A stretch of DNA of 42,169 nucleotides, taken from Deltaproteobacteria bacterium (GTDB lineage Bacteria; Desulfobacterota; Deferrisomatia; Deferrisomatales; BM512). Numbering within the stretch: position 1 is the first letter of the stretch; each line of letters opens with the position of its first letter. The notes under the pieces were generated by a model. That model made no database searches, was not told the origin of the DNA, and was given only the letters and a program-made list of their open reading frames with translations. Positions 6,245-42,118 of the stretch are shown one piece after another. Made by a program: the position numbers and the translations under genes. The DNA lies in the NCBI GenBank assembly GCA_002869015.1, contig PKTT01000052.1, forward strand, positions 1 to 42,169, given 5' to 3'.

Positions 6245-6474
6245 CGAAGCCTCCATCCTGGGCCCATAGGGCATTTAATATAGAAAAACAAATATTTTAA
6301 GCCATCTCTTTGGGGCGAAATTGTTAAAAGCGCCTCCATATCGAGACGCCGTATCAACTCAAATTGCGCAGAGCTAAAATGCGTTAGCCACGGTATTTTG
6401 CTGCACATAGTAAAGAGCGCTTATAAATATACGACCTGCCAATATGCAGCTATTTTATAACTGCGTTTTGTAAT

Positions 6475-15153: not shown

Positions 15154-15161
15154 TTTTTTTC

Positions 15162-15614
15162 CTACTCGTAGGTTTTAAGAACTTCCGCGGTCTGCGCCGG
15201 GGTGAGTTTGCCGTGCATCTTACCGTCAATCTCGACTACGGGGCCCAGCGCGCAGCAGCCGAGGCAGTTTACCGTCTCAAGGCTGTAGCGAAGGTCCGCG
15301 TCGGTTTCGCCGGGCTTGATGCCTGTGAGCCCCTCTAAGGTGTCGAGGACTCTTGTCGCACCGCGCACGTGGCAGGCGGTGCCCATGCAGACGTTGACTT
15401 CGTGACGACCCTTTGGCACCAGACTGAACGCTTTGTAGAAGGTCGCGATGTGCTGAATGCGCGTCATCGGAACCTTCAGCCGCTCGGAGACCCGCTCTAG
15501 CGCCTCCTTGGAGAGCCAGCGATTCTCAACCTGTATATCGATGAGCACCTGGATGAGGGTGCTTGGGTCGCCGCCGTATTTATCAACAATTTCATCGATC
15601 CGTTCATTAGTCAT
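15162..15614 (-). CDS. bamG: Class II benzoyl-CoA reductase complex, NuoE-like subunit BamG
   Basis: A 150-residue thioredoxin-fold [2Fe-2S] protein of the NuoE family. The four ligands are in VNVCMGTACHVRGA and TVNCLGCCALGP, with the usual helical N-terminus. NuoE-type subunits bind tightly to NuoF-type partners, here BamH. ATG 15614 is used; its ribosome site is weak, consistent with translation coupled to bamF, whose stop lies 33 nt before it. Length and motifs are typical. Confidence 0.94.
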   Translation of the reverse strand: MTNERIDEIVDKYGGDPSTLIQVLIDIQVENRWLSKEALERVSERLKVPMTRIQHIATFYKAFSLVPKGRHEVNVCMGTACHVRGATRVLDTLEGLTGIKPGETDADLRYSLETVNCLGCCALGPVVEIDGKMHGKLTPAQTAEVLKTYE

Positions 15615-15647
15615 TTGAGTCTCACAGTCCTTATAAAGCGCCTCGCG

Positions 15648-16409: not shown

Positions 16410-16454
16410 CGGGTCTGTCCTCCGTTTAATGTGTAAAAGTTTTCTTTCATATCA

Positions 16455-19400: not shown

Positions 19401-19538
19401 CCCCGCGGAGCTCAGGTCGAGGGCGGTCTGTATGCCGCTTATGCCGCCGCCGACGACCATGACGTCTCCGAACTCGCCCTTTGAAAGGGAGGCCCTGAGC
19501 GCGTCAAATTGCTCGGTTGTTATGAGCTCATTTCCCAT
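16455..19538 (-). CDS. bamE: Class II benzoyl-CoA reductase subunit BamE (HdrA-like flavoprotein, UGA = Sec77)
   Basis: A 1027-residue double HdrA-like flavoprotein if the TGA at 19310-19308 is read as selenocysteine. Residues 24-77 form the first FAD region ([13 protein letters not shown], then [19 protein letters not shown]). U stands where HdrA proteins have a conserved Cys. A 4Fe-4S motif follows ([12 protein letters not shown]), then [16 protein letters not shown] motif lies near 480, and a second Rossmann FAD module ([13 protein letters not shown]) near 615. The C-terminal ferredoxin is [11 protein letters not shown] with CNCVCP. HdrA is the site of flavin-based electron bifurcation, thought to drive low-potential electrons to BamBC. 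The downstream frame continues without frameshift to TGA 16455. Without Sec readthrough only 76 residues would be made. Confidence 0.94.
19275..19310 (-). promoter_or_regulatory. UGA-selenocysteine codon and SECIS-like hairpin in bamE
   Basis: The TGA is at 19310-19308. From 16 nt downstream CTGGTC pairs with GGCCGG (19292-19275, four Watson-Crick and two G-U pairs) around the loop GAGGTC. The loop contains GGUC, like the Escherichia coli fdhF SECIS, with GU 25-26 nt after the UGA. The position and loop fit a bacterial SECIS well. Confidence 0.75.
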
Positions 19539-19592
19539 TTTGCTTGCCTCATTAACTATGCGCCCTCAATGCCGCTCGGGCGCGTTGTTTGA

Positions 19593-20744
19593 CTACAGTA
19601 GTTCAGCCAGTATCTCGGTGATATCCTTGACCTCAAGCGACTCGCTGTCGGCCATACCGAGGCGGCTATCCTCCAACATGGTTATGCAGTAGGGGCAGGA
19701 GGTGGCGAGTATGCTTGCGCCCACCTTTGCCGCCTGCTCGACCCTTATGTCGGAGAAGCGCTCACCTTTGGGGGTGTCCATCCAGACGCGCCCTCCCCCG
19801 CCACCGCAGCAGAGGGAGTTTTCACGGTTCTCGGGCAGCTCGGTGAAGTCGAGGCCGGGGACCGCTTTCAAAAGGTCGCGTGGCTCCTCGTAGATACCGT
19901 TATGGCGGCCTAGGTAGCAGGGGTCGTGGTAGGTGACCCGCTTTTCAAGCTCACCGTTAAGCACCAGGCGCCCGGCATCAACCAGCTCTTTTAAGTACTG
20001 ATTTATATGGACCACCTCGAAGTGGACCATGAACTCCGGGTACTCGTTTTTGAAGGTGTGGTAGCAGTGCGGCGAAGAAACCAGGACGCGCTTTACGCCA
20101 TTGTCGATGAAGGTCTTGATGTTGTCCTTGGCGAGCTTTTTGAAGACCTCTTCGTCGCCGGCCTTTCGAATCGACTCACCGCAGCAGTTCTCCTTGGTGC
20201 CTAGGATGCCGAAGCTGACCCCCGCCGCTTTTAAAAGCTTGGCGGTAGCAGCCGCAACCTTCTGGAGCCTCTTGTCGAAGCTGAGGTAACAGCCTGAGAA
20301 GTAGAGAATCTCCATATCCTCAGTGAACTCAGCCACCCCGGCGGCCTTGCCCCAATCGCCGCGCGTCGCGCGGTCTTCGCCGAGGGGATTGCCTGTGCCG
20401 GAGAGGTTGCCTGCCACCGCGCGTACCGGCTTTACATGCTCAGGGAAGACGCCGTACTCGGTGGCGATTCTCCTCAAGGCGATGCCCGACTGTATCTGGC
20501 TTACGTCGCGGGGACAGCGCTCGGGGCACCTGCCGCATGTTGAGCAGCGCCAGATCTCCTCATTTTCAATCTCCGTCATCCCGAAGGAGGCCTGACGGAC
20601 AATCTTCCTCATGCTGAACTGGCGCACGTTGTTCCAGGGGCAAACGGTGTCGCAAAGCCCGCACTGAAAGCAGCGCTTAAAGCGTTCGCCGCCCGAGTCC
20701 TTTATTATCTCAACAATTTCTTTGTAATCGGCTACGTTATCCAC
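19593..20744 (-). CDS. bamD: Class II benzoyl-CoA reductase subunit BamD (HdrD/HdrB-like)
   Basis: A 383-residue iron-sulfur protein. The N-terminus has two [4Fe-4S] motifs, CFQCGLCDTVCPW and CSTCGRCPERCP. The rest has two CCG domains: SGCYLSFDKR with NCCGESIRKAG, and DPCYLGRHNG with SLCCGGGGGRVW and SCPYC. CCG domains hold non-cubane clusters in heterodisulfide reductases. In the Bam complex this subunit links BamE to the BamBC catalytic module. The start is GTG 20744, with GAGG 7 nt before it. It follows bamC after 48 nt and precedes bamE by 54 nt. Confidence 0.94.
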   Translation of the reverse strand: MDNVADYKEIVEIIKDSGGERFKRCFQCGLCDTVCPWNNVRQFSMRKIVRQASFGMTEIENEEIWRCSTCGRCPERCPRDVSQIQSGIALRRIATEYGVFPEHVKPVRAVAGNLSGTGNPLGEDRATRGDWGKAAGVAEFTEDMEILYFSGCYLSFDKRLQKVAAATAKLLKAAGVSFGILGTKENCCGESIRKAGDEEVFKKLAKDNIKTFIDNGVKRVLVSSPHCYHTFKNEYPEFMVHFEVVHINQYLKELVDAGRLVLNGELEKRVTYHDPCYLGRHNGIYEEPRDLLKAVPGLDFTELPENRENSLCCGGGGGRVWMDTPKGERFSDIRVEQAAKVGASILATSCPYCITMLEDSRLGMADSESLEVKDITEILAELL

Positions 20745-20792
20745 GATTCGACCTCACGGAGCGTGTTTTAAAGGGGCCTCCCTTAGGGGCGG

Positions 20793-21344
20793 CTAATCCT
20801 CTTTCTTGGTAAGCCGCGCGACCGACTCCGCGACCTTGTGGAGGCCAAACTTGTCTACGAGGTGCTCAAGTCCAAGCTCCATCTCGGAGACCTTGGGCTG
20901 CTCCTCCTCTTCATCCACCTCTACTTCACGCTCCTCATACTCAAGGGCGCCGACCATGCACCACTTGACGCAAAGGGGCTCATCAAGCGCGGGGATCGAT
21001 TCGCACATATCGCACTTTAGCGGCAGGCCGGAGTCCGGCTCTTTGAAATCACCGCGAGATGGACAAGATGCACGGCAGAACTCGCACTCCTTGTACTCCT
21101 TGCCGTCTAATATGTAGGAGTTACGGCCCAGGCACTCTGCGGGGGTGTACTCGCCCGCATAGACCGGTACGTAGATGTCCTCCAGAGGACGGCGGATGAC
21201 GCTGATGCGCGAGCGCGCCGGGTTATTGGAGGAGTATTTGGGCTCGGAGTGGAAGGCGGAGCACGCCATCTCGCACGCACGGCACCCGTTACAGAGATCT
21301 GCGTTGACCTTTATCGACTTTACCGTTTTAGTTTTTTTAGCCAT
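20793..21344 (-). CDS. bamC: Class II benzoyl-CoA reductase electron-transfer subunit BamC
   Basis: A 183-residue ferredoxin-like subunit with several [4Fe-4S] motifs. CNGCRACEMAC lies at residues 17-27, CEFCRASCPSR near 92, and CDMCESIP with CVKWC near 115-130. An acidic segment (EVDEEEEQPK, about 146) and a helical tail follow. It is the direct partner of BamB, carrying electrons to the tungsten active site. ATG 21344 follows AAGG; the gap to bamB is 29 nt. Cys count and order fit BamC and related AOR small subunits. Confidence 0.93.
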   Translation of the reverse strand: MAKKTKTVKSIKVNADLCNGCRACEMACSAFHSEPKYSSNNPARSRISVIRRPLEDIYVPVYAGEYTPAECLGRNSYILDGKEYKECEFCRASCPSRGDFKEPDSGLPLKCDMCESIPALDEPLCVKWCMVGALEYEEREVEVDEEEEQPKVSEMELGLEHLVDKFGLHKVAESVARLTKKED

Positions 21345-21373
21345 GGCGAATACCTTTTCGCTTTATGTTCCCG

Positions 21374-23365
21374 TTATTCGGATGCGGATTCCTGGGGTGC
21401 GTCCGCGCCCGCTTTGAGGATACCCTTCGCCAGGAACTCGTCGGCTACGTAGCCGAGGCCAAGGTCCCTTAAGGACTCCTCGGTGGGGATGCCGTCGTCG
21501 TTCCAGCCTTTGAATTTGTAGTATGCGCTGAGCAGCTCCGCCTCGTACTCAGGGAAGCGTTTTTTCCAGTGGTTTTCCGGGGGCTTTTCATCGGCGCGGC
21601 GCATACCGCGGCGGATGTTGTTTGCCCGGACCAGCGTTCTGTAACGTTTGACCGCCTTGGTGAGTTTCTCCTCATCCATCGGGATGCCGGAGCCTGCCTC
21701 AATGAATTTGGGGTAGTTGTGTATATGGTATGGAGGCTTCAGCGGGAAGGAGGAGAGGCCCGCGCACATGCCGAGGGCGTCATCGATGTAGTGCATCATC
21801 TCCATCCAGTCGACTATCTCACAGCACATATCAATGGTGGGATAGTAGGGGTTTGAGAATTCGCCCCTGAACTCCCACTTCATGAGGTAATCCTTGAACT
21901 TGTCGTCGGGGACCTGAATCCAGTCTTTGACGAACGCCTCCCGCTCCTCCACCGTGGCGAAGGGGGCCTGCGGGAACTGCCCCTCGATCTGGGTGATGTT
22001 CATCTTCTCGCCGGTGGAGTACATGAGGAAGTAGACGGGGTTCATCATGCCGAGCTTAAGGGGCAGCTGCTCGATCTTCTTGATGTTGTTGTGGGCATAC
22101 TCCTCGGCCCCGTTGCCGATCTCCTTCGCCGCCCAGTAGGTGCCGTTGGCGAGGATGTTGCCGATGCCCTTCCTGTTGACGATCATGTCGAGGAGGTAAT
22201 AGAAGCGCCCCTCGTTCTCCTCCGGCAAGCCGGGGAAGTCTTCGGGTTTCAGAATTCCCGCCTCAAGGAGTTCCAGCGCGAAGGCCATCACCTGCGGCGC
22301 AGAGAAGCCGTCAACGCCATGCTCGGTGGCCGCCTGCGCGATGCCGAGGCCAAACTCCAGGTCGGAGAAAGCGGCCATCGTGTAGGTGAGCTTGGAGAAG
22401 CACTTCATCATGTAGGTATCCATGCCGGGGGGCTGGATAGTGGCGCCGCAGGTCATCGGGCAGTTGTAGCAGCTTATGAGACGACGCTGCATAGAGTTCA
22501 TCGTCTCTTCCCAATCCTTTGCGATCTCCTCATTCCAGAAGTCGCGGCGGCGCACCCTTGAGTTACCCCACATGAAGTTCTCGGTGTGCCACTTCTCGTC
22601 GTGGACCTTCATCTCCTGGGGGGAGCCTAGGCCGGCGAGGATTGGCATGACATTGGGGATGGGGTTTTCATTTCTAAAGCGTATGTAGTCCATCACCTCG
22701 TAGCAGAGGTCGAAGTAGCGGTCGGGCTCTGCGAGGTTGATATCCTTGGTGCCGCGAACGACAATAGCCTTTACGCCCTTATCGCCCATCACCGCGCCGA
22801 TACCGCCGCGGCTTGCGCTTGAGCGGCCCTGCTCGATTGAGGCGAAGTAGACCCTGTTCTCTCCGGCGGCGCCTATGGCGGCGACCTGGGCTTTGGGCTC
22901 GTTAAGCTCTTCGCAGATTATTTTGGAGGTTTCGATTGCGCCCTTGCCCTTGAGGTGTGAGGCGTCGCGAATCTCTACCTTGTCGTTGTTGATCCAGATG
23001 TAGACGAGGTCCTTTGACTTGCCGCTCAGGATGATCTTGTCGTAACCGGCGTACTTGATCTCCGGCGCGAGAAAGCCGCCCATCATAGAGAAGCACATAA
23101 GCTCCGTCTGGGGGGAAAGCGTCGTTATGATCGTGCGGTTACAACCCGTCGCGGGGGTACCGCAGAGGAGCCCGGCGCTGAAGATAAGGAGGTTGTCTTC
23201 GGAGAATGGCTCAGTCTCCGGCGGGACACGATCCCACATTATTTTGGCGTTGGTGCCGAGCCCGCCGAGGTAGAGCTCGGTATCTACAACGTCACTCTCC
23301 ACCCGGTCGTAGCTGCCCCGGGTGAGGTCGATTTCGAGGTTGTACCCTGTCTCTGCGTACCTCAT
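21374..23365 (-). CDS. bamB: Class II benzoyl-CoA reductase catalytic subunit BamB (tungsten AOR family)
   Basis: A 663-residue aldehyde:ferredoxin oxidoreductase-family protein. It is the active-site subunit that reduces benzoyl-CoA to cyclohexa-1,5-diene-1-carbonyl-CoA at a tungsten-bis-pterin. Visible features are GGLGTNAKIMWDRVPPETEP and GTPATGCNRTI at the N-terminal pterin-binding domain, SRGGIGAVMGDKGVKAIVVRG (about 185-205), the cluster/pterin segment SCYNCPMTCGA (about 302), and CAGLSSFPLKPP (about 548). The full AOR length is present. ATG 23365 has GAGAGG upstream. Its membership in the contiguous bamBCDEFGHI set, rather than similarity alone, supports the benzoyl-CoA assignment over other AORs. 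Confidence 0.96.
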   Translation of the reverse strand: MRYAETGYNLEIDLTRGSYDRVESDVVDTELYLGGLGTNAKIMWDRVPPETEPFSEDNLLIFSAGLLCGTPATGCNRTIITTLSPQTELMCFSMMGGFLAPEIKYAGYDKIILSGKSKDLVYIWINNDKVEIRDASHLKGKGAIETSKIICEELNEPKAQVAAIGAAGENRVYFASIEQGRSSASRGGIGAVMGDKGVKAIVVRGTKDINLAEPDRYFDLCYEVMDYIRFRNENPIPNVMPILAGLGSPQEMKVHDEKWHTENFMWGNSRVRRRDFWNEEIAKDWEETMNSMQRRLISCYNCPMTCGATIQPPGMDTYMMKCFSKLTYTMAAFSDLEFGLGIAQAATEHGVDGFSAPQVMAFALELLEAGILKPEDFPGLPEENEGRFYYLLDMIVNRKGIGNILANGTYWAAKEIGNGAEEYAHNNIKKIEQLPLKLGMMNPVYFLMYSTGEKMNITQIEGQFPQAPFATVEEREAFVKDWIQVPDDKFKDYLMKWEFRGEFSNPYYPTIDMCCEIVDWMEMMHYIDDALGMCAGLSSFPLKPPYHIHNYPKFIEAGSGIPMDEEKLTKAVKRYRTLVRANNIRRGMRRADEKPPENHWKKRFPEYEAELLSAYYKFKGWNDDGIPTEESLRDLGLGYVADEFLAKGILKAGADAPQESASE

Positions 23366-24304: not shown

Positions 24305-24538
24305 TCAGCATTTCTTCGTGTAGATGATTTTAAAGCGGGAGGGGTCTTCGTCGGCGTCTATGCAGCTGGTGCAGGGGTATAGGGAATCCGCGCAGATCTT
24401 CTTGAATTCTTCGAGCCTGACTTCAAATCCAGCTTCGCGGTAGGCTTCAACAAGTTCGCTTAAACGAGGTTCTGTTGCGACGGTTCTGCGCTCCCACCCC
24501 TCTTGCTCCGGTAATCCATTCTTTTTACAACCGCTCAT
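24305..24538 (-). CDS. Small Cys-containing protein of unknown function
   Basis: A 77-residue protein with no family I recognise. Cysteines are at CKKNG near the start, KICADSLYPCTSCIDADED in the second half and the last residue. The CTSC pair could bind metal. The middle (LSELVEAYREAGFEVRLEEF) looks like a helix followed by a strand. Its ATG is 4 nt past the ferredoxin stop with GGTGA overlapping, so it belongs to the activase operon as its last gene. Its conservation beside such activases would be the quickest route to a role. Confidence 0.7.
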   Translation of the reverse strand: MSGCKKNGLPEQEGWERRTVATEPRLSELVEAYREAGFEVRLEEFKKICADSLYPCTSCIDADEDPSRFKIIYTKKC

Positions 24539-24542
24539 AACT

Positions 24543-24824
24543 TCACCAGCTATGGCTTATCGAGCCGAAGGGGCAGGCGGCTACGCAGGGCAAGGTTTCA
24601 AAGTCCTCCCCTGCCTTGCAGGGCGCGCACTCATAGCGCAGCTTCTTGCGCTTTAACTCGTCAACCGCTATTGCGATATCTCCATAGGGGTCCTCCTCCT
24701 CGACGAGGAGCGAGGCGGGGCATGCTTTTACGCAGGGGCGCGCCTCGCAGGTGGCGCAGGGGGCCGTATCTACTGTTATGTAGAACTCGCCCTCTCCATC
24801 AGCGTAACCGTAGTTGGCGATCAT
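24543..24824 (-). CDS. Small 2x[4Fe-4S] ferredoxin-like protein of the activase operon
   Basis: A 93-residue protein with exactly eight cysteines in two sets: C23, C26, C31, C35 (CATCEARPCVKAC) and C66, C69, C80, C84 (CAPC then PCVAAC). Each can hold a [4Fe-4S] cluster, though the spacing differs from ordinary bacterial ferredoxins and is closer to FeS subunits of oxidoreductases. ATG 24824 overlaps the stop of the upstream ATPase gene (ATGA), implying coupled translation. Class I benzoyl-CoA reductases use a ferredoxin to reduce their ATPase module; here it may reduce the adjacent ATPase pair. That is inference from order and cluster content. Confidence 0.8.
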   Translation of the reverse strand: MIANYGYADGEGEFYITVDTAPCATCEARPCVKACPASLLVEEEDPYGDIAIAVDELKRKKLRYECAPCKAGEDFETLPCVAACPFGSISHSW

Positions 24825-25699
24825 CCCGACCGCTCCCTCCGTAGGAGATTATCAGCGAAGAGCGCAGCGCCAAGTGCGCCCGCTATTTGAGTATCGTACT
24901 CGCTATTCAGGGCCTTGACGCCGAGGATATCCTCTATGCGCCTTACTATTCCGATATTTTTTGAGATACCCCCGGTTATAAAGAACTCCCGTTCCACACC
25001 GATGCGCATCAGGAGCGCCGACACACGCTCGCTCATGGCGCGGCAGTAGGAGGCTATTACCCGGTTCTTTGACCACCCCTCCTTCAGCCTCGCCATAGCT
25101 TCGCTTTTGGCGAAGACGACGCATACGTCGGAGACTGCTGGCGGCTCCTCCTCTATCTCAAAGGAGCGCTCACCTATCTCTGTTACCGGCACCTCCAAGA
25201 GGTCTGCTATCACCTCCATGCCGCGCCCGGTGCCCGCCGCGCACTTGTCGTTCATAAGGAAGTTTGTCACCTTGCCGCGCTCGTCTATATGTATCCCCTT
25301 GCAGTCCTGCCCACCCATATCGAGGATGGTACGAACCGAGGGGCCCCCCATGTAGTGCGCGCCAAGTCCGTGGCAAGCGATCTCTGTTACCGCCTTTTGA
25401 GCGAAGGGAACATTTACCCGCCCATATCCGGTGCCGACAGTGTAGGCGATCTCTTTTTCGGTGAGGCCGGTCAGCTTAAGGAGCCCCTCCCTGGCCGCTA
25501 GGGCCGAGGCGGGGGAGTTGGCTCCGGTGCGAATCGTATTGTACGCAGCCAGCTTACCATCAACGCAGAGCACCGCCTCCGAGCTGACCGAGCCCACGTC
25601 GATGCCAAGCGTAATTCGCTCAGCGCCTCGCCAGTCAACCCCCTCAAGGACTTTGCCGCCCTCCGTCCATCGCCAATATTCCACCTGTCTATCAGGCAC
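24821..25699 (-). CDS. BadF/BadG/BcrA/BcrD-type ATPase (BzdQ-like activase subunit)
   Basis: A 292-residue ASKHA-fold ATPase of the acyl-CoA dehydratase activase/benzoyl-CoA reductase group, which couples ATP hydrolysis to low-potential electron transfer. It has TLGIDVGSVSSEAVL (phosphate 1), ILDMGGQDCKGI (phosphate 2), and the two cluster cysteines in NDKCAAGTG and SDVCVVFAKSE that bridge a [4Fe-4S] cluster between subunits. The N-terminal EYWRWTEGG extension recalls BzdQ-type subunits. GTG 25699, with GGAGG 6 nt before it, is the likely start and overlaps the upstream gene by 8 nt; starts further up lack a site. With the next ATPase it would form a heterodimer. No BcrB/BcrC-type catalytic subunits are adjacent. 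Confidence 0.85.
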   Translation of the reverse strand: MPDRQVEYWRWTEGGKVLEGVDWRGAERITLGIDVGSVSSEAVLCVDGKLAAYNTIRTGANSPASALAAREGLLKLTGLTEKEIAYTVGTGYGRVNVPFAQKAVTEIACHGLGAHYMGGPSVRTILDMGGQDCKGIHIDERGKVTNFLMNDKCAAGTGRGMEVIADLLEVPVTEIGERSFEIEEEPPAVSDVCVVFAKSEAMARLKEGWSKNRVIASYCRAMSERVSALLMRIGVEREFFITGGISKNIGIVRRIEDILGVKALNSEYDTQIAGALGAALFADNLLRRERSG

Positions 25700-26486
25700 C
25701 CTTCGCCTCCCTCGCTGCGCGGTCGGCCGCCACAAGAGCAGCGCCGAGGGCATCGGCAAACTCAGGTTCTTCGGGAATCAGGAGCTTATCCAACCCCAGC
25801 GCCTCTGCAAGGGATTTAACGAAACCAGGATTCTTCGCCATTCCCCCGAAGAGGGCAACCGACTCAGCGGCCCCCACACGCCTTGCCTGGGAAGATACTC
25901 GGCTTGCGATGGCGTCATGCACTGCGCGGGCGATATCGCTCTCCTTAACGGAGTTGTGTATAAGCGAAACCACCTCACTCTCCGCGAAGACCGTGCACTG
26001 CGCGTTCATCTCTATCCTCTCCGTGGAATCCAGAGATACCAAACCGAACTCCTCAAGGGTGAGACCAAGCGCTCTCGCCATCGACTCGGTGAAGGAGCCT
26101 GACCCCGCGGCGCACTTTTCATTAACTGAGGAGTCGAGCACCCGCCCCGCGCCATCGGTCATCACTGCGCGGCTCTCCTCGGCGCCAACCTCAACGATTA
26201 CATCCACGCCAGGCATAAGGTACGCCCCTGCGCGTGCGGCGGCGGTTACGTCGGTAACCTGCGAGTCCGCGAAATCTAGCAACTCCCGCCCCATGCCAGT
26301 CGCGGTGATGTGGTTGACCTCCTCCCTCTTTACGCCCGCTCCGCTCAAGAGCTCCTCCAAAAGGGAGAGCGCCGAGTCCTTTAAAGCATATCCACCTAAG
26401 GAGGAGGCCATCGAGATCACTCCACCCTCTCTCAACAGGAGCGCTTTTATCTTCTTGTTACCTGCATCTATACCCACGGTGACCAT
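25692..26486 (-). CDS. BadF/BadG/BcrA/BcrD-type ATPase (BzdP/BcrD-like activase subunit)
   Basis: A 264-residue ASKHA ATPase, the partner of the following gene. It begins TVGIDAGNKKIKALL and has cluster cysteines in NEKCAAGSGSFTE and NAQCTVFAESE. The second phosphate segment reads EVGAEESRAV instead of the usual DIGGQD(S/N)K, so it differs from single-subunit activases. This asymmetry between two paralogues resembles the BcrA/BcrD and BzdP/BzdQ pairs of class I benzoyl-CoA reductase. Start ATG 26486 has GGAGG 11 nt upstream; a TTG three codons earlier is possible. It is first in its operon, divergent from the sensor kinase gene. Confidence 0.83.
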   Translation of the reverse strand: MVTVGIDAGNKKIKALLLREGGVISMASSLGGYALKDSALSLLEELLSGAGVKREEVNHITATGMGRELLDFADSQVTDVTAAARAGAYLMPGVDVIVEVGAEESRAVMTDGAGRVLDSSVNEKCAAGSGSFTESMARALGLTLEEFGLVSLDSTERIEMNAQCTVFAESEVVSLIHNSVKESDIARAVHDAIASRVSSQARRVGAAESVALFGGMAKNPGFVKSLAEALGLDKLLIPEEPEFADALGAALVAADRAAREAKGA

Positions 26487-26638
26487 ATACCGCAACACCT
26501 CCAATTAAGCTTAACAACACAGGGCGTAATGATAACTACCCTTTCAACCGGAAGCCACCCCCGGCTCGCGTTTATCTCTACTTGATAAATATGACAACGA
26601 GATTAATGGGCGTTTCGGTCAAAAGCTACACCATATAC

Positions 26639-26730: not shown

Positions 26731-28638
26731 ATGGCTCAAACAAAGCAGGAACCAAGGTCATTGCTCTCAATGCTGGAAGGCTTCTCCGCCCTTGCGGGGA
26801 GTTCTCCCCTGCCCATAAACCGCGCCTTTGCCCGCATGCACCTTGAACTTGGGGTAAAAGCCTCGCGATTGACCCAGAGGGAGGAGGAGGGCGGGGATAT
26901 CCTACTCTTCGAGGCGGGGTGGAGCGGGCTGACGGGTGAGGAGGAGATACTCTCCCTGCCCTGCAATTCTGCGGAGCTGGAACGAGGAACCATTGAGGTC
27001 GCGGCAAACTCCTTCGGGGCCGATACCCTTTCAGCGCTGGAAGCAGTTGCCTCCCGTATTGGCGTTGAGCTTGACAACCGGCGCCTCAGGGAGGAGCTGG
27101 CTGAAGCGCGCTTTGAGTCGGAGGCGATACAGTCCTTCAGCCACGAGCTGACGTGGAGCCGAGATATAAAGACCCTCTGCGACGTCGTCTTAAAGGAGGC
27201 TCTTCACCTCGTTCAGGCCGAGGGCGGGGCGTTATACCTTGGCGAGCCGAGGGACGACCATATTTATCTCAGGGCGACGGCGGGTGAGCTATATTCTCCA
27301 TTGCCCGAGCGGATCCTCCCAGGTAGCGAGGGATCCTTCATAGCTTTAGCCGCGCTTGGTGAACGCCCCTTGAGAAACAGGGAGGCGGAAGTTGCCAAGG
27401 AGGATGGCGCAGAGGTTAACCGCATAGCGGTGCCCTTCAAGTCCACCGGGGGCGTTCTTGGCGTGCTTACCCTTGAAGCCTTGGCCGGCAACCCATTTGA
27501 CATATCTCAGGAGAGGGTCCTCTCGGTCTTCACGGCGCAGGCCTCAAAGGCCCTTGAGGTTGCTATCCTCATCGGCGACCTTCGCCTTGAGCGGGACACA
27601 AGGGAGAACATCCTCGCGGGCAGCCCCAACGGCATCATTGCCGTGAATGAACTTCGCAAAGTTACGCTGATGAACAGCGCTGCGCGCGATTACCTCGCCG
27701 TTCGAGAGGAGCCCGTTGGCAACCCCATAGAGCGTTACATACCGCTCAAAAAGCCCCTCGCCCTGCTCGACCGCGTGATGAGCGACAGGTCTCAACTGGA
27801 GGCTGTGGAGCTGCCCATCTTAAGAAACGGGGAGACCCGCTACTACTACACAAATATATGCAGCCTCGGGCGCTCCTCGACCCCCGGCGCGACCCTGATA
27901 ATTCAGGACGTAACCGAGAAGAAGAAAATCGACGCAAGGATGCAGTTCATGGAGCGCGTAGCCTCCATCGGTCATCTGGCGGCGGGCATCGCCCATGAGA
28001 TAAGAAACCCCCTAACCGGGATCGGCATAACCCTCGACAACCTTGTGGCGGAGGAGGATATCTCCGAGGGTGGACGCGAGCTGATACGCGACATTCTAAA
28101 AGAGGTCGAGCGGCTTGAGCACCTGATAAAGGAGCTCCTCGACTTCGCCCGCCCGCAGCCCGCCAAGATTCAACCGATGGAGCTATCGACAGCCTTCGAG
28201 TGGTCAAGGGCCTTCACCAAGCAGTGCAGGAAGAAGGGCATTGAGTGCGAGGTATCAATGGAGGAGAACCCCACCCTCGTCGGCGACCCGGAGAAGCTAA
28301 AGCAGCTATTTTTAAACCTCGCCATCAACGCCCTTGAGGCCACTGCGCCGGGTGGACGAATAGCAATCCGCTCATATTTAAAGGGGCCCGGCAACGGTCG
28401 GGTGACGGTTGAGATATCGGACACCGGCTCCGGCATAGATGAAAAGACGCAGAGCCAGGTGTTCACCCCCTTCTTCACAACAAAAAACGAGGGGACGGGG
28501 CTCGGCCTCTCTATAGTCCACTCAATTTGCGAGCAGCACGGCGGCGAGGTTGAGATCGACTCCACCCCCGGCGTAGGCACTACCTTCATGGTAAACCTCC
28601 CCCTCTCAGGGGCCAGGGAACCATCAAAGGAGATATAA
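26731..28638 (+). CDS. Soluble sensor histidine kinase (GAF-PAS-HisKA-HATPase)
   Basis: A 635-residue cytosolic kinase without membrane segments. The N-terminal 125 residues are of unclear fold. A GAF-like sensor follows (about 140-285), then a PAS domain (about 290-410, ILAGSPNGIIAVNE), the phosphoacceptor H-box GIAHEIRNPLTGIG (about 425), and the ATPase boxes NLAINALEAT, SDTGSGIDE and GTGLGLSIV. It is followed with no gap by the NtrC-type regulator, the cognate partner. Two GGTT-N7-ACCG elements lie just upstream. A soluble sensor fits detection of an intracellular signal such as an aromatic acid or CoA thioester. In Geobacter a comparable two-component pair (BamVW) is linked to benzoate genes; equivalence is inference. 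Confidence 0.92.
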   Translation: MAQTKQEPRSLLSMLEGFSALAGSSPLPINRAFARMHLELGVKASRLTQREEEGGDILLFEAGWSGLTGEEEILSLPCNSAELERGTIEVAANSFGADTLSALEAVASRIGVELDNRRLREELAEARFESEAIQSFSHELTWSRDIKTLCDVVLKEALHLVQAEGGALYLGEPRDDHIYLRATAGELYSPLPERILPGSEGSFIALAALGERPLRNREAEVAKEDGAEVNRIAVPFKSTGGVLGVLTLEALAGNPFDISQERVLSVFTAQASKALEVAILIGDLRLERDTRENILAGSPNGIIAVNELRKVTLMNSAARDYLAVREEPVGNPIERYIPLKKPLALLDRVMSDRSQLEAVELPILRNGETRYYYTNICSLGRSSTPGATLIIQDVTEKKKIDARMQFMERVASIGHLAAGIAHEIRNPLTGIGITLDNLVAEEDISEGGRELIRDILKEVERLEHLIKELLDFARPQPAKIQPMELSTAFEWSRAFTKQCRKKGIECEVSMEENPTLVGDPEKLKQLFLNLAINALEATAPGGRIAIRSYLKGPGNGRVTVEISDTGSGIDEKTQSQVFTPFFTTKNEGTGLGLSIVHSICEQHGGEVEIDSTPGVGTTFMVNLPLSGAREPSKEI

Positions 28639-30027
28639 TTGTCCGCACGAATACTTATCGTCGATGACGAGGCGTTGATTAGAAAGTCCCTAAGCCACGG
28701 CCTCATCCGAAAAGGTTACGAGGTAGAGACAGCCGCCTCCGGGGCTGAGGCGAGGGCCCTCTTCGCCCCCGGCGAGTTCGACCTGATACTCCTCGACCTT
28801 AGACTTCCGGATACCTCGGGGATCGACCTCTTAAGGGAGTTCAAGGAGGCGCAGGAGGATATCCTCGTCATTATGATGACCGCCTATGGCACCCCTGAAT
28901 CCGCCGAGGAGGCCACTTTGCTTGGGGCCTACGACTACGTCAACAAGCCCTTCAAGTCGCGGGAGATTGAGGTAATAATCCGCCTGGCAATAGAGGCGGG
29001 GAGCCTTAAGCGTGAAGTCAAAGCGCTCCATGAGGACGCCGCATCACCCTATTCACTGGACAATATGAAGAGCGAAGACCCCTCAATGCTCAAGGTCTTC
29101 GACATGGTTCGAAAGGTTGTCACAACCCCTGAGGTGCCGGTCCTCATACAGGGTGAGAGCGGCACAGGCAAGGAGATGGTGGCGCGGGCGATCCACGCCG
29201 AATCTGACCGGCATGATAAACCCTTCATCGCCATAAACTGCGCCGCCATCCCGGATCATCTTATGGAGAGCGAGTTCTTCGGCCACGAGAAGGGCTCCTT
29301 TACCGATGCCAAGGGTCGCAAGATTGGGCTCATGGAGCGCGGCGAGGGCGGAACAGTCTTTTTGGATGAGATCGGCGAGATGAGCCTGCCGCTACAGGCA
29401 AAGCTTCTCCGGGTCCTTGAAGAGCGGACCTTGAGGCGGATCGGCGGAGCACGCGACATCCCCCTCGACATAAGGATAATAGCGGCGACCAACCGCTCTC
29501 TTGAGGAGGCGATAAAGGAGGGCTCTTTCCGCGAGGATATCTACTACCGGCTGAAACTTATAAACATAACCCTACCCCCCTTAAGGCTGCGGCGCGGGGA
29601 CATACTCCCCTTAGCCCGTCACTTTATCGAGCTTTCCAACGTACGTTTTCATAAGCAGGTCAAAGGTTTGACAGAGGAGGCGGCAAGGGAGCTTGGCGAG
29701 TACCACTGGCCGGGAAATATCCGCGAACTTAAAAATACCATTGAGCGAATCCTCATTCTTGAGGAGACTGAGTACATAGACGCCGAACACCTCCCCCCGG
29801 AGATAAGAGGCCGGGAGGGCGCGAACCTCTCAGGCATGATCCTCCCACAGGGCGAAGAGATTGAGGGCGGCATCGACTATGAAGCGTTTCTCACAGAGGT
29901 TGGACGCCACCTCATTTCGGAGGCGCTCCGCATCGCCGGGGGCAATAAGGCAAAGGCTGCGCGCCTCCTCTACATGGACAGGGGAACGCTGCGCTACAAC
30001 ATAAAGAGGATGGAAATAGAGGCATGA
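28639..30027 (+). CDS. NtrC-type sigma54-dependent response regulator
   Basis: A 462-residue activator. The receiver domain has the phosphorylated Asp53 (LLDLRLPD), a switch Thr (MMTAYG) and Lys (YVNKPF). The AAA+ domain has Walker A GESGTGKE, Walker B GTVFLDEIGEM, and arginine fingers near FREDIYYRL. The C-terminal Fis-type HTH is GGNKAKAARLLYMDRGTLRY. The sigma54-contact loop is GSFTDA in place of GAFTGA, an uncommon variant. The start is TTG 28639 with AGGAG 6 nt upstream, immediately after the kinase stop. It is the best candidate to act at the sigma54 promoters of the ior and paaK units and at the GGTT-N7-ACCG elements. Confidence 0.93.
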   Translation: MSARILIVDDEALIRKSLSHGLIRKGYEVETAASGAEARALFAPGEFDLILLDLRLPDTSGIDLLREFKEAQEDILVIMMTAYGTPESAEEATLLGAYDYVNKPFKSREIEVIIRLAIEAGSLKREVKALHEDAASPYSLDNMKSEDPSMLKVFDMVRKVVTTPEVPVLIQGESGTGKEMVARAIHAESDRHDKPFIAINCAAIPDHLMESEFFGHEKGSFTDAKGRKIGLMERGEGGTVFLDEIGEMSLPLQAKLLRVLEERTLRRIGGARDIPLDIRIIAATNRSLEEAIKEGSFREDIYYRLKLINITLPPLRLRRGDILPLARHFIELSNVRFHKQVKGLTEEAARELGEYHWPGNIRELKNTIERILILEETEYIDAEHLPPEIRGREGANLSGMILPQGEEIEGGIDYEAFLTEVGRHLISEALRIAGGNKAKAARLLYMDRGTLRYNIKRMEIEA

Positions 30028-35624: not shown

Positions 35625-36434
35625 TCACAAACCTAGGATAAACTTCTGAATCGCAGCTAGGGTTTCCTCCTGCTTCTCCTTGTGCGGGGAGTGTCCGCAC
35701 TCCGGGAGGAGCAGAGTCTCGACTTCCACAGGCGCGCCATTGATTATCGCCTCTATCTGCGCAAGGGTGCCGTACTCGTCATTATAGCCCTGCACCGCTA
35801 AAAGGGGCACTGTCACACCTTGGAGAAAGCGCTCGACATTCCACTCCTTAAAATCCGGGTGGAGCCACGCAAGGTTCCAGCCCCAGAAGGCGCAGTCGAC
35901 ATTTTCCCCATGGTACTTTCTGAGGCCCTCTTTGAGGTCCCCAAAGAGGTAGTTACCCCTGGCTTGACGGATTGATGAGAGCCCCTCCTCCTCCGCGAAG
36001 AGGTGAGCGGCGAAAGTTACGACACCTAGGAGCCCTCCGGCCTCTGTGCCCCCGGCATAGACGAGCGAGATAGTGCCGCCATCGGAGTGGCCTAAAAGGA
36101 TGTGCTCGCCTATACCCGCCCTTTTAATAACTTCCGGCACCTCGTTTAGCCCCGCCTCCTCCATGTAATCAAGGGGGCGCGGCACTTCGCAGGGGTCGGA
36201 AGCGCCGTATCCGGCGCGGCTGTAGGCAAACACCTCCAGGCCGGTGGCCTCGGCGAGGCGCTCAGGGAAATCTCTCCACATCGACACGCAACCGAGCCCC
36301 TCATGTAGGAGGAGGATGGTGACCTTTGAGCTTGCGCCCCGCTTCGGCATGAAGCGAGCGCACTCAAGGCGTTTCCCATTTATCTCGATGTATCCAAGCT
36401 GCATTTGAAAAGAATTCCCCTCATATCTCGTCAT
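35625..36434 (-). CDS. Alpha/beta-fold hydrolase
   Basis: A 269-residue serine hydrolase. The oxyanion region is LLLHEGLGCVSMW (HEG rather than HGG/HGF), the nucleophile elbow GHSDGGT (Ser about 117), the acid QGYNDEYG and the base CGHSPH near the C-terminus. Size and motifs fit carbon-carbon bond or ester hydrolases of the MhpC/3-oxoadipate enol-lactonase type. It is a single-gene unit with its own terminator; ATG 36434 has GGGTGA upstream. The substrate cannot be told from sequence. Confidence 0.87.
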   Translation of the reverse strand: MTRYEGNSFQMQLGYIEINGKRLECARFMPKRGASSKVTILLLHEGLGCVSMWRDFPERLAEATGLEVFAYSRAGYGASDPCEVPRPLDYMEEAGLNEVPEVIKRAGIGEHILLGHSDGGTISLVYAGGTEAGGLLGVVTFAAHLFAEEEGLSSIRQARGNYLFGDLKEGLRKYHGENVDCAFWGWNLAWLHPDFKEWNVERFLQGVTVPLLAVQGYNDEYGTLAQIEAIINGAPVEVETLLLPECGHSPHKEKQEETLAAIQKFILGL

Positions 36435-36865: not shown

Positions 36866-38095
36866 ATGGCAGTGCCAAAACTTGAATCTCTAAAAAAGAT
36901 GAAGGAACTCGTCGCAGGTCACTTCACAGGGCTCGACGCAGCCGCGAAGGACCCGGCGCGAAAGGTTGCATGGTGCACCAGCGTAGGCCCCGTCGAACTC
37001 TTGAGAACATTTGGCTTTGAGGTCTACTTTCCCGAAAATCACGGGGCGGTGCTCGGCGCTTCGAGAAAAGCCAACGACTATATCCCAAGGGCGAACGCCG
37101 CAGGCTATAGCCCTGATATCTGTAGCTACCTGACGGCTGATGTGGGCGCTTTCCTGGCGGGAGAGACACCCCTCACCCACGGCTATGGACTTCAGAGCGT
37201 ACCCACCCCCGACATCCTCGTCTACAATACAAACCAGTGCCGCGACGTTGAAGATTGGTTCGCCTTCTACGCCCGCCATTTCGACATACCCCTCGTAGGG
37301 ATCAACTCTCCCGTACAGGTCGGCGACGTCACCGATGAGCTGGTCAAAACGCTGGTGCCGCAATATGAGGAGCTGATTCCCGTCTTCGAGAGGGTGAGCG
37401 GCATAAAGTTCGACATCGACCGCCTCCGCGAGGTCATGACCGACTCGGCGGAAACTTCACGCCTATGGGGTGAGGTCCTTGGGACTATGGCGCACCGCCC
37501 AAGCCCTATGACCTTCTTCGACACCTCAGTGCACATGGCTCCGGCGGTCATCCTTCGCGGTTTGCCCGAGGCTTCGGATTATTACAGAATGCTCCTAAAA
37601 GAGCTCTCTACCCTAACCGAGGCAAACGTCAGCGCGGTAAAGAATGAGCGCTTCCGCATCTACTGGGACGGCATGCCGGTATGGGGAAAATTGCGCGAGC
37701 TCTCGACCTTCTTTAACGATGTAGATGCATCACTCGTGGTCTCCACCTACTGCAACTCCTGGGTCTTCGAGGCCTTCGACCCGTCAGACCCTTTCAACTC
37801 GATGGCGCGCGCATTCCTTGAGCTATTCATAGCCCGCTCAGACAAGGCCAAAGAGGTTATCATGGCGGAGCTCTGCGAGAAGTTCTCCGTGGACGGCGTC
37901 ATATACCACGACGCCAAAACTTGCCCCAATAACTCCAACACCCGCTATGGCTTGCCGCAGAGGCTAAGGGAGAGAACGGGGCTGCCCTTCACCATCGTCT
38001 ACGGCGACTTAAACGACCTGCGCTGCTTCTCCGAGGAGCAGGCGAAGACGAGCATCGAGGCTTTTCTAGAGCAGATTGAGGGAGGGCGAGGTTAA
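36866..38095 (+). CDS. HgdB-like 2-hydroxyacyl-CoA dehydratase family protein (double-cubane cluster protein candidate)
   Basis: A 409-residue protein of the 2-hydroxyacyl-CoA dehydratase/benzoyl-CoA reductase B-C superfamily. It is encoded singly with one activase, unlike dehydratases and BcrBC, which need two different subunits. Seven cysteines exist. Six lie in conserved-looking settings: C37 (AWCTSVGP), C86 (DICSYLTADVG), C125 (NTNQCRD), C296 (STYCNSW), C353 (AKTCPNNSN) and C387 (LRCFSEEQ). Six Cys suit an [Fe8S9] double-cubane cluster as in DCCP of Carboxydothermus, the YjiM-like group. GGGAG is only 1 nt before ATG 36866 but 7 nt before GTG 36872, so the start may be the GTG. The substrate is unknown. 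Confidence 0.8.
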   Translation: MAVPKLESLKKMKELVAGHFTGLDAAAKDPARKVAWCTSVGPVELLRTFGFEVYFPENHGAVLGASRKANDYIPRANAAGYSPDICSYLTADVGAFLAGETPLTHGYGLQSVPTPDILVYNTNQCRDVEDWFAFYARHFDIPLVGINSPVQVGDVTDELVKTLVPQYEELIPVFERVSGIKFDIDRLREVMTDSAETSRLWGEVLGTMAHRPSPMTFFDTSVHMAPAVILRGLPEASDYYRMLLKELSTLTEANVSAVKNERFRIYWDGMPVWGKLRELSTFFNDVDASLVVSTYCNSWVFEAFDPSDPFNSMARAFLELFIARSDKAKEVIMAELCEKFSVDGVIYHDAKTCPNNSNTRYGLPQRLRERTGLPFTIVYGDLNDLRCFSEEQAKTSIEAFLEQIEGGRG

Positions 38096-38868
38096 TGTCA
38101 TTTTACTGCGGCGTGGATATCGGCTCCACCTGGACCAAGGCGGTGATACTGGGTGAGGAAGAAAAGAGCGACTACACCCGCGCCCTGGTCAGGACCGGCA
38201 TCAGCTTCGAGGCCGCTGCGCTCTCAGCCCGCGATGAAGCCTTAGCTAGGGCCAAGCTTGCGCCGGAGGATATAACCCGCACCTTCTCCACCGGCTATGG
38301 AAGGATGAACGCCGAGTTCGCCGATGGTCGCAGAACCGAGATCGCCTGCCACGCTAAAGGGGCCTTCCACTCATTTCCCCACCCTTGCCACGTAGTCGAT
38401 ATTGGCGGGCAGGATAACAAGATAATTCAGCTCAACGCGAGCGGCGCGGTAGAGCACTTTCTGATGAACAGAAAGTGCGCGGCGGGTACAGGCTCCTTCA
38501 TAGAAGAGATTTCCCGCCGCCTTGACATTGATATGAAGCGGCTGGAAGAGCTGGCGGAGAACGCAACAAAGGAGATCACCCTCTCCTCCTTCTGCACGGT
38601 CTTTTCAGCTACAGAGGTGATAAAGCTGATTCGTGAAGGCGAGAACCCGGAGAACATCGCCAAAGGAGTTTTCAACGCCGTAGTCGCAAGGGTCACCGAG
38701 ATGGGAACCCTCGGCGGCAAGGTTGTCCTAACCGGGGGAGTGGCGGCGGCCTTCCCCATAGTCGCCCAGATCCTCTCTAAAGCAACAGGCCAAGAGGTCT
38801 TCATCCCTGAACACGCTCAATTCACCGGCGCGTTGGGCGCCGCGCTTGAAGCAAAAACAAGCAGTTAA
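38095..38868 (+). CDS. Homodimeric ATPase activase (DCCP reductase/HgdC-like)
   Basis: A 257-residue ASKHA ATPase with a [4Fe-4S] cluster at its dimer interface, which injects electrons into its partner at the cost of ATP. It has GVDIGSTWTKAVI, STGYGRMNAEF, VVDIGGQDNKII, and cluster cysteines in NRKCAAGTGSF and SSFCTVFSATE. The full DIGGQD motif and single copy fit a homodimer, in contrast to the asymmetric pair at 24821-26486. Its ATG overlaps the stop of the HgdB-like gene by one base (TAATG), so both products are surely made together. The unit ends at a strong terminator. Confidence 0.9.
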   Translation: MSFYCGVDIGSTWTKAVILGEEEKSDYTRALVRTGISFEAAALSARDEALARAKLAPEDITRTFSTGYGRMNAEFADGRRTEIACHAKGAFHSFPHPCHVVDIGGQDNKIIQLNASGAVEHFLMNRKCAAGTGSFIEEISRRLDIDMKRLEELAENATKEITLSSFCTVFSATEVIKLIREGENPENIAKGVFNAVVARVTEMGTLGGKVVLTGGVAAAFPIVAQILSKATGQEVFIPEHAQFTGALGAALEAKTSS

Positions 38869-39654: not shown

Positions 39655-39709
39655 CTACCAAATTTGATTATTCACTTAACGCTAAATCAAGCACTAAGCA
39701 GGAGTGAAA

Positions 39710-42118
39710 ATGGGCAAGATAAGAAAGGCAGCAGTTCTGGGCGCGGGCGTCATGGGCGCGGCGATCGCCGCGCATCTGGCCAACGCCAATATCCCGACGC
39801 TTCTCCTGGATATCGTTCCGGGAGAGCCGAACGAGGACGAGAAGAAGAAGGGTCTCGACCTCGACAGCCCTGCGGTCAGAAACCGTTTCGCCGCAGGAGG
39901 CATAGCCAAGGCTTTAAAGGCGCAGCCTGCCGCGTTCAGCCATAAGAAGAACGCAAAGCTCGTCACCCCCGGCAACTTTGAGGACGACCTCGACAAGCTC
40001 GCGGAGGTCGACTGGGTCGTGGAGGCGGTTGTGGAGAGGATGGATATCAAGATATCCCTCTTCGAGAGGGTGGCTACCCATCTTAAACCGGGAGCCCTCC
40101 TCACCACCAACACCTCAGGCCTCTCGGTTAACGAGATGGCGGCGGCGATCCCCGAAGAGCTTAAAGGTCGCTTCTTCGGCACCCACTTTTTCAACCCTCC
40201 CCGCTATATGCACTTGCTTGAAATTATTCCCGCTGAGACGACTGACCCGGCGGCGATGGAGGAGTTTGCTGAATTTGCCGAGTTCTCCCTCGGCAAGGGC
40301 ATTGTCTACGCCAAGGACACCATAAACTTCATAGCAAATCGCATAGGCGTCTTCTCGATGCTTTACACAGGCGTAGCGATGGAGCAGCACGGGCTTAACA
40401 TTGAAGCGGTCGACGCTCTCACCGGAAAACCCTTTGCCCGCCCCAAGAGCGCGACCTACCGCACCGCCGACCTCGTCGGCCTCGATGTACTCGCCCACGT
40501 CGCCAAAAACCAGTATGACGGCGCCCCGGACGATGAACATCGCGAAGTCTTCAAGCTCCCCGCATACCTGGACAAGCTCCTCGAAGCTGGTCAGCTCGGC
40601 ATGAAGACGGGCGGCGGCTTTTACAAGCGCGCCAAGGATGAGTCGGGCAAAAAGGTGACTCTTGTCCTCGACACCGCAACCGGTGAATACCGCCCCAAGG
40701 AGAAGGTTAAATTCCCTGTCCTTGAAGAGCTAAAGCAGATTGAGGAGCCCACAAAGCGTGTGGCGGCCCTGATACGCGACAAATCAGCGGCGGGCAAGTT
40801 CAGCTGGGACGTAATCGCGGAGACACTACTCTACGCAGCGAGGCGCATCCCCTCCGTATCCGCCGACGTGGTCTCCATCGACCGGGCGCTGCGCTGGGGT
40901 TTTGGTTGGGAGGTCGGCCCCTTTGAGATATGGGACGGCATCGGGGTGAAGAAATCGGTTGAGAAGATGCTCGCCGAGGGGCGCGACGTGCCGGAGGGAG
41001 TAAAAGCCCTCGCCGACTCCGACAACCCCACTTTCTACCTGAAGAACGGGGTAGAGATAAAGGTTTGGAATATGGTGGAGAAGAAGCATGAGCCCCTCCC
41101 CGCCAGAAAGAATGTGACTGTCCTCTCCGACCTTAAAGCGGCGAAGCGAGTCCTCTACTCCAACGCGGAGGCCTCAATAATCGACCTTGGAGACAGGGTG
41201 GCGTGCCTTGAGTTCCACTCCAAGATGAACGCCATCGGCGGCGGCATAATGACCGCAATCCAGAAGGCCACCTCCGACAACGGCGCAAATTACGATGCCC
41301 TCGTCGTCGGCAACCAGGGTGAGAATTTCTCCGTAGGCGCGAACCTCATGCTCATCCTCTTCGAGGCGCTTGAGGGCGAGCTTGACGCTATAAACGCAAT
41401 GGTAGCCGCCTTCCAGAAGGGGACCATGGCCCTTAAATACTCTCCGGTTCCGGTAGTTGCCGCGCCCTTCGGGAGAGTCCTCGGCGGCGGCGCTGAGGTC
41501 TGCCTCCACTCCCACCGCGTACAGGCGAGCCTTGAATCCTACATGGGCCTCGTAGAGGTCGGCGTAGGGCTCGTACCCGGCGGCGGCGGCACTAAGGAAT
41601 TCGCCCTACGCTCGATGGTCGGTTATCCCGGCAGCGGCGCGGACCCCTTCCCCTTCATCAGAAACGCCTTTGAGAGCATCGCTATGGCAAAGGTCTCCTT
41701 CTCGGCGCATGAAGCTCAGGACCTTGGCTTTTTGCGCCCCGGCGACCGCATCTCTATGAACGCCGAGCACCTCATAGACGACGCGAAGAGAAGCGCGATA
41801 GACCTGCTTGAGTCCGGCTGGACTCCGCTGGTCAAGGAGACCGCGACCATCAAAGCGCTTGGCCGCGACGGCCTGGGGAACTTCCGCTCCGTCCTCCACA
41901 ATATGAAGTCGGGCAAGTTCATAAGCGAGCACGATGAGCTCGTGGCGACAAAGGTTGCGACGATCCTCTGCGGAGGCGACATAGAGGCGGGCACAGAGGT
42001 TACTGAGCAGTACCTGCTTGACCTCGAAAGGCGCGCTTTCATTGAGCTTTGCGCCGAGCGTAAGACCCTTGAGCGTATCCAGCACATACTAAAGACAGGC
42101 AAGCCCCTCCGGAACTAG
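39710..42118 (+). CDS. fadN: Bifunctional 3-hydroxyacyl-CoA dehydrogenase/enoyl-CoA hydratase (FadN-like)
   Basis: An 802-residue beta-oxidation protein that hydrates 2-enoyl-CoA and oxidises the 3-hydroxyacyl-CoA with NAD. The dehydrogenase is N-terminal: AAVLGAGVMGAAIAAHLA (Rossmann), NTSGLSVNEMA and the catalytic THFFNPPRYMHLLE. The hydratase is C-terminal: NQGENFSVGANL, GRVLGGGAEVCLHSHRV and EVGVGLVPGGGGT with the catalytic Glu. This order is that of B. subtilis FadN and the reverse of E. coli FadB/FadJ. ATG 39710 has GGAG 5 nt upstream; the GTG at 39704 overlaps that site. It is followed by a thiolase gene, matching fadN-fadA. It could serve fatty acids or the late steps of aromatic catabolism. 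Confidence 0.92.
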   Translation: MGKIRKAAVLGAGVMGAAIAAHLANANIPTLLLDIVPGEPNEDEKKKGLDLDSPAVRNRFAAGGIAKALKAQPAAFSHKKNAKLVTPGNFEDDLDKLAEVDWVVEAVVERMDIKISLFERVATHLKPGALLTTNTSGLSVNEMAAAIPEELKGRFFGTHFFNPPRYMHLLEIIPAETTDPAAMEEFAEFAEFSLGKGIVYAKDTINFIANRIGVFSMLYTGVAMEQHGLNIEAVDALTGKPFARPKSATYRTADLVGLDVLAHVAKNQYDGAPDDEHREVFKLPAYLDKLLEAGQLGMKTGGGFYKRAKDESGKKVTLVLDTATGEYRPKEKVKFPVLEELKQIEEPTKRVAALIRDKSAAGKFSWDVIAETLLYAARRIPSVSADVVSIDRALRWGFGWEVGPFEIWDGIGVKKSVEKMLAEGRDVPEGVKALADSDNPTFYLKNGVEIKVWNMVEKKHEPLPARKNVTVLSDLKAAKRVLYSNAEASIIDLGDRVACLEFHSKMNAIGGGIMTAIQKATSDNGANYDALVVGNQGENFSVGANLMLILFEALEGELDAINAMVAAFQKGTMALKYSPVPVVAAPFGRVLGGGAEVCLHSHRVQASLESYMGLVEVGVGLVPGGGGTKEFALRSMVGYPGSGADPFPFIRNAFESIAMAKVSFSAHEAQDLGFLRPGDRISMNAEHLIDDAKRSAIDLLESGWTPLVKETATIKALGRDGLGNFRSVLHNMKSGKFISEHDELVATKVATILCGGDIEAGTEVTEQYLLDLERRAFIELCAERKTLERIQHILKTGKPLRN

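Follow-up and report, generated by a model that had tools for sequence, protein, structure and literature searches.

The gene pair P1/P2 is encoded toward the end of the analysed stretch of DNA, a contig of 42,169 nucleotides from a Deltaproteobacteria bacterium that is referred to as the window. P1 groups with the catalytic subunits of the HadB/BzdO/MbdO type within the dehydratase/benzoyl-CoA reductase family, and its orthologs constitute a widespread, solitary branch of this family that is apparently unstudied so far. In analogy to characterized relatives, P1 and its activase P2 may form a one-gene, ATP-activated radical 2-hydroxyacyl-CoA dehydratase, with an aryl-lactoyl-CoA as likeliest substrate and a product that would be passed on to benzoyl-CoA; the case for this assignment is regarded as about evenly balanced. 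The features of the window on which the analysis relies are collected in Table 1.

Table 1. Features of the window bearing on P1/P2, with coordinates, strand and basis of assignment.
Feature	Coordinates	Strand	Basis and remarks
IorA, indolepyruvate:ferredoxin oxidoreductase alpha	31..1791	-	TIGR03336 702 bits, cut-off 651
AMP-forming acyl-CoA ligase, ApbA-IorA operon	1856..3370	-	part of ACT-ApbA-ligase-IorA
ApbA/PanE-like 2-oxoacid reductase candidate	3386..4321	-	TIGR00745 over cut-off
ACT-domain protein	4323..4835	-	GGTT-N7-ACCG site at 4899 just upstream
PaaK-like phenylacetate-CoA ligase	4952..6274	-	TIGR02155 524 bits, below cut-off 646
Histidine kinase and sigma-54 response regulator	26731..30027	+	profile matches; two GGTT-N7-ACCG sites upstream (26639, 26682)
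GGTT-N7-ACCG element upstream of P1	36647..36661	+	conserved in sister genome as CGGTTAATTTTAACCG
P1 (409 aa), solitary catalytic HGD-D protein of HadB type	36866..38095	+	Pfam/NCBIfam, PDB, tree, AlphaFold2
P2, activase, CoA_E_activ domain, 257 aa	38095..38868	+	TIGR00241; PDB matches
TetR/FadR-like regulator downstream of P2	39001..39654	+	profile matches; order same in sister genome
FadB-like 3-hydroxyacyl-CoA dehydrogenase/crotonase	39704..42118	+	profile matches

The ORFs of P1 and P2 overlap by one base, as described in the earlier note, the shared base lying within a TAATG, and the note's statement that a single HGD-D gene is combined with a single activase gene stands as well, since no second HGD-D gene besides P1 was found in the 95%-complete genome of the organism. 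P1 matches PF06050 (HGD-D) with 211 bits. As an activase of the BcrAD/BadFG type, P2 matches PF01869 and TIGR00241 (210 bits, cut-off 125), carries cysteines in the motifs NRKCAAGTG and SSFCTVF and has MbdQ, HadI, HgdC and DCCP-R as PDB matches. The FadB-like protein encoded further downstream possibly catalyzes the next steps for an enoyl-CoA product; in a related locus (L037/L056) another FadB-type gene is located immediately 5' of P1. An alpha/beta hydrolase gene (35625..36434, minus strand) is divergent from P1, and its place next to P1 is retained in both the sister genome and L037/L056.

No curated NCBIfam subfamily cut-off is reached by P1, that of HadB included: it scores 221.9 bits against the HadB equivalog NF052455 (cut-off 750), 165 bits against the BcrB model TIGR02260 (cut-off 487), 64 bits against the BzdO model TIGR03191 (cut-off 449) and 50.9 bits against the DCCP model NF040772 (cut-off 350), for which a true DCCP from the sister genome of the same genus, taken as positive control, yielded 491.5 bits. 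The best sequence relative of P1 in the PDB is HadB (E 4e-51; about 30% identity), and the P1 family profile returns HadB (4e-67), MbdO (5e-45), BzdO (2e-31) and DCCP (3e-6). The AlphaFold2 model of P1 (pLDDT 92.9) has HadB as its top fold match with a TM score of 0.92, followed by BzdO/MbdO (0.85-0.87), DCCP (0.76-0.78) and BzdN/MbdN/HadC (0.64-0.73). A maximum-likelihood tree was computed from 81 proteins. In it, the orthologs cluster with P1 at 100/100 support among the catalytic subunits, together with HadB, BzdO and MbdO, and a 100/100 split separates them from DCCP and YjiM (99/93) and from the BzdN/HadC/MbdN side; several long branches were flagged in this tree, so that the closest neighbour of the P1 clade is provisional. 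The designation of P1 as HgdB-like is correct at the level of the superfamily (PF06050) and fails at the level of type, as the nearest relatives of P1 are of the alpha, catalytic (HadB) type and not of the HgdB/HadC beta type.

In BzdN the [8Fe-9S] cluster is coordinated by C36/C73/C100/C263/C293/C327, and in BzdO the [4Fe-4S]-OH2 cluster by C95/C128/C380 (PMC11971306). The ligands were compared in an alignment of 98 proteins and conservation was counted over 62 sequences. Instead of the six well-placed cysteines described earlier, P1 holds seven, five of which are conserved: cysteine is present at C86, C125, C296 and C353 in 62/62 and at C37 in 61/62 sequences, and neither C387 (48/62) nor C337 (9/62) is conserved. 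C86/C125/C353 align with BzdO C95/C128/C380 and with the HadB ligands; as judged from this alignment, P1 keeps the three cysteines holding the catalytic [4Fe-4S] cluster. A valine occupies the position of BzdO His131. C296 aligns with BzdN C263, which by elimination is assigned to the distal cubane, and C37 is located in the loop of BzdN C36 with an offset of about one residue; MbdO also has a cysteine in this column. An equivalent of BzdN C293 is absent from P1 in the 98-protein alignment, so that five of the six double-cubane ligand positions hold cysteine, C37 being only approximately aligned. C387 was ruled out as sixth ligand, as the position is leucine in 13/62 sequences. None of the other catalytic subunits of the panel has a cysteine in the C296 column, and the site of P1 accordingly resembles that of HadB, supplemented by two conserved thiols, C37 and C296.

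A gene for a second subunit was not found in the closed relatives G007 and Desulfonema magnum. The single contig of G007 encodes one DCCP, P1 and one HGD-D protein of ~339 aa, and on the complete chromosome of D. magnum the HGD-D set consists of one DCCP-scoring protein and P1 only. Near P1, a BzdN/HadC/MbdN-like gene is present in 1/90 loci (L089), the other matches being P1 itself. A short HGD-D protein (about 330-360 aa, 98-142 bits; e.g., L033, L034, L035) is common in relatives and missing from the genome of the window; the ~330-aa protein was ruled out as partner of P1 by this absence. P1 would thus act as a homodimer. Several of the nearest P1 paralogs (36-41% identity) adjoin a BzdN-like partner with all six ligand positions; the paralogs L153, L155, L156, L159, L160, L162 and L163 are HadB-like subunits paired with such partners, and heterodimers of the L153 type, to judge by their ligand residues, likely hold an [8Fe-9S] cluster.

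In a genome scan at least 562 relatives of P1 were identified, the best 80 of which span 53-95% identity and are distributed over Desulfobacterota, Geobacter argillaceus, Zixibacteria, Aminicenantes, Planctomycetota, Thermoplasmata and others. Among 90 P1 loci, 77 contain an activase, 34 an ADP-forming acyl-CoA synthetase, 23 an AMP ligase and 17 a thiolase, and genes for IorA, PaaK, ACT-domain and PanE-like (ApbA) proteins as well as had, dch-like and oah genes are recurrent. The order ACT-ApbA-activase-P1-ADP-forming acyl-CoA synthetase is found in D. magnum and others, G056 encodes P1-P2-synthetase-ligase-thiolase-IorA as a single gene run, and L122 shows the order BamE, BamH, oah, had, dch-like, activase, P1, synthetase, thiolase, PaaK, IorA. 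In a phylum sample of 118 drawn genomes plus that of the window, P1 is present in 19 genomes, BamA in 30 and both in 16 (Fisher 3e-9), ApbA orthologs (at least 54% identity) occur in 12 genomes, all 12 of which have P1 (Fisher 5e-12), and within the BamA genomes an ApbA ortholog is found in 10/16 with P1 versus 0/14 without (p = 3e-4), whereby shared ancestry among the genomes lets these p-values overstate independence.

The link to aromatic metabolism suggested in the earlier note is supported by these neighbours and by the co-occurrence with BamA and ApbA, and the GGTT-N7-ACCG element that it had reported as common to P1 and aryl-acid genes was recovered. The element occurs six times in the window versus 1.1 expected, a number reached in 0/100 shuffles; five sites are intergenic and one lies inside bamD. 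Apart from P1, sites precede the ACT-ApbA-ligase-IorA operon, PaaK and, twice, the histidine kinase gene, and the sister genome keeps those before P1, the operon and the histidine kinase. In G003 the element is found before bzdP. The sigma-54 response regulator would be a candidate regulator acting on it. A sigma-54-like site, TGGCACGCAGCTTGCA (6490, minus strand), is located between oah and PaaK and is also kept in the sister genome.

For the proposed dehydratase, the computed features are the fold, the cluster ligands, the single activase and the linkage to a 2-oxoacid-reductase-like gene and to CoA ligases, and HadBC serves as model for the transfer of the electron, for the ketyl radical and for the substrate. 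Two P1 chains would form the enzyme, P2 would use ATP hydrolysis to supply the open-iron [4Fe-4S] cluster of P1 with a single electron of low potential, and an (R)-2-hydroxyacyl-CoA would lose its 2-hydroxyl group by a HadBC-like ketyl-radical mechanism to yield the enoyl-CoA. An aryl-pyruvate would be reduced by the PanE-like enzyme and activated by a CoA ligase to an aryl-lactoyl-CoA such as phenyllactoyl-CoA, P1/P2 would form the aryl-acryloyl-CoA, and the cinnamoyl-type product would enter the Bam pathway as benzoyl-CoA after one round of beta-oxidation; by way of IorAB and PaaK, phenylacetate or aromatic amino acids would be channelled to the aryl-pyruvate, the directions and substrates of IorAB and ApbA being presumed. 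The choice of an aryl-lactoyl substrate is based on IorA, PaaK and the benzoyl-CoA setting, and the pathway is supported by the ApbA co-occurrence, by the gene runs of D. magnum and G056 and by the element common to P1 and the ACT-ApbA-ligase-IorA operon. The single activase fits dehydratases, as the reference class I reductases have two different ones. Against a dehydratase count the scores of P1 below the HadB and all other curated subfamily cut-offs, the conserved C37 and C296, which a plain HadB-type site leaves unexplained, and the many P1 genes near dch, had and oah, which would suit a reductase too. To our knowledge, the known dehydratases of the HadBC/HgdAB family consist of two different subunits, which also counts against a one-subunit enzyme. 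Against the pathway count six P1 genomes with BamA that have no close ApbA ortholog, three P1 genomes of the phylum sample without BamA and the 32 kb between P1 and ApbA in the window.

In the genome of the window no phenylglyoxylate dehydrogenase PadG over cut-off was found (240 of 700), and 1/20 genomes (G006) has one. It was reported that the sulfate reducer Desulfococcus multivorans is devoid of PadB and PadEFGHI, grows on phenyllactate and, with phenylacetate/phenylpyruvate as substrate, forms IorAB along with a hydratase, a dehydrogenase and a thiolase, and its route from phenylacetate to benzoyl-CoA was termed unclear (PMC5109826). A cinnamoyl-CoA route would employ these beta-oxidation enzymes; the D. 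multivorans gene arrangement was looked for in G063 and was not found. A 2026 benzene study postulates a phenyllactyl-CoA dehydratase forming cinnamoyl-CoA, to which no gene was assigned (PMC13416013). Literature searches yielded no direct report of a single-subunit dehydratase or of a phenyllactoyl-CoA route to benzoyl-CoA. Tentatively, and with considerable doubt, a complete, hitherto undescribed Pad-independent route can be drawn, in which PaaK would turn phenylacetate into phenylacetyl-CoA, reductive carboxylation by IorAB would lead to phenylpyruvate, the PanE-like enzyme to phenyllactate, and CoA activation, P1/P2 and beta-oxidation via cinnamoyl-CoA to benzoyl-CoA; in a P1 homodimer C37 and C296 would assume tasks of the lost electron-transfer subunit and perhaps hold an unusual second metal site. 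In strict anaerobes without the Pad pathway, P1/P2 may contribute a missing reaction on the way from phenylacetate or phenylpyruvate to benzoyl-CoA, and it offers a concrete, expressible and assayable candidate for such a step in the D. multivorans-type and benzene routes. A family member that has a single subunit and retains two cysteines of the double-cubane site would also bear on the evolution of [8Fe-9S] and [4Fe-4S] sites in this radical enzyme family.

It is unlikely that P1/P2 is instead an ATP-dependent aryl-CoA/enoyl-CoA reductase, related to class I benzoyl-CoA reductase, built from one subunit and active in the benzoyl-CoA pathway. The dch/had/oah neighbours in L068, L087, L098, L122, L125 and L133, the catalytic branch common to P1, BzdO and MbdO and the C37-column cysteine of MbdO speak for such a role, but a separate ring-reductase candidate is present in 12/12 named P1 genomes checked, namely a BamB homolog in seven and a paired HGD-D system in the other five, with 12-14 kb between pair and P1 in one Zixibacterium and one Thermoplasmatales genome; because of these, a role of P1 as ring reductase is improbable. 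Moreover, the scores for BcrB and BzdO are far under the cut-offs, P1 is linked with a PanE-like reductase, and in place of the two HGD-D and two activase genes of a class I operon, such as those with MbdPQ or BzdPQ, the locus has one of each, the BzdPQ-like pair of the window being encoded elsewhere. P1 as obligate partner of this pair was ruled out, since G002, G004 and G021 have an over-cut-off BzdQ without P1. A one-subunit dehydratase of non-aromatic 2-hydroxyacyl-CoA, e.g., 2-hydroxyglutaryl-CoA or branched-chain substrates, is likewise improbable. The closest solved relative, HadB, is an enzyme of the leucine pathway, and dicarboxylic CoA esters arise from benzoyl-CoA breakdown, making a link to glutaconyl-CoA conceivable; the repeated association of P1 with genes for IorA, PaaK and the ring pathway and the element common to P1 and the ACT-ApbA-ligase-IorA operon argue against a non-aromatic substrate.

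That P1/P2 is a double-cubane cluster protein with its reductase (DCCP/DCCP-R), as the earlier note had put forward, is highly improbable. The combination of a single HGD-D gene with a single activase gene and the cysteines at five of the six ligand positions would agree with it, but the curated model, the ligand comparison, the tree and the fold search all led to its rejection: the NF040772 score stays far from that of the positive control, one ligand position is absent, and the phylogeny and structure prediction named as checks place P1 nearest to the HadB fold and on the catalytic HadB/BzdO/MbdO side of the 100/100 split, with DCCP, YjiM and the subunits of BzdN/HadC type on the other; this placement speaks against the proposal by the note's own criterion. 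True DCCPs are encoded by separate genes in the same genomes as P1.

Among known systems, the (R)-2-hydroxyisocaproyl-CoA dehydratase HadBC/HadI (PDB 3o3m, 4eht) shares with P1/P2 the HGD-D fold, the three-cysteine site and a single type of activase; in contrast to P1, HadB needs HadC and is without the two extra conserved cysteines. The phenyllactoyl-CoA dehydratase FldBC/FldI of Clostridium sporogenes, cited in PMC13416013, has the reaction proposed for P1/P2 in common with it and differs as a two-subunit enzyme with a CoA transferase. The class I benzoyl-CoA reductases BzdNO/MbdNO (PDB 8s02, 9g87) have BzdO/MbdO on the side of P1 and equivalent [4Fe-4S] cysteines, whereas P1/P2 lacks a BzdN-like partner, a second activase and the His131 equivalent. 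DCCP/DCCP-R (PDB 6eno, 7yyl) and E. coli YjiM/YjiL resemble P1/P2 in gene number and differ in branch, ligand set and curated score. In a benzene-degrading enrichment, the singular FldB-like gene BzS1_13720 (30% identity to FldB) is solitary like P1 and its protein was not detected (PMC13416013); it could be a P1 ortholog.

The window also contains a full class II benzoyl-CoA reductase-like cluster in bamB to bamI order (12641..23365, minus strand), downstream of which thiolase, SDR, ECH, had and oah genes are located. Class II benzoyl-CoA reductase is thought to be ATP-independent, which makes it odd that BzdQ-like (430 bits, cut-off 380) and BzdP-like activases (24821..26504, minus strand) adjoin bamB, beside a small ferredoxin-like ORF (about 24530..24823, minus strand). 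No BzdNO was found in this genome despite the BzdPQ-like pair, and in 12/12 genomes of the relatives set having both, an over-cut-off BzdQ and a BamB homolog lie within about 15 kb. On contig C11 of the same genome, an open frame of ~780 aa (about 530..2263; L004/L006) encodes two activase domains and is perhaps part of a long fused activase, which comprises ~1400 aa in relatives.
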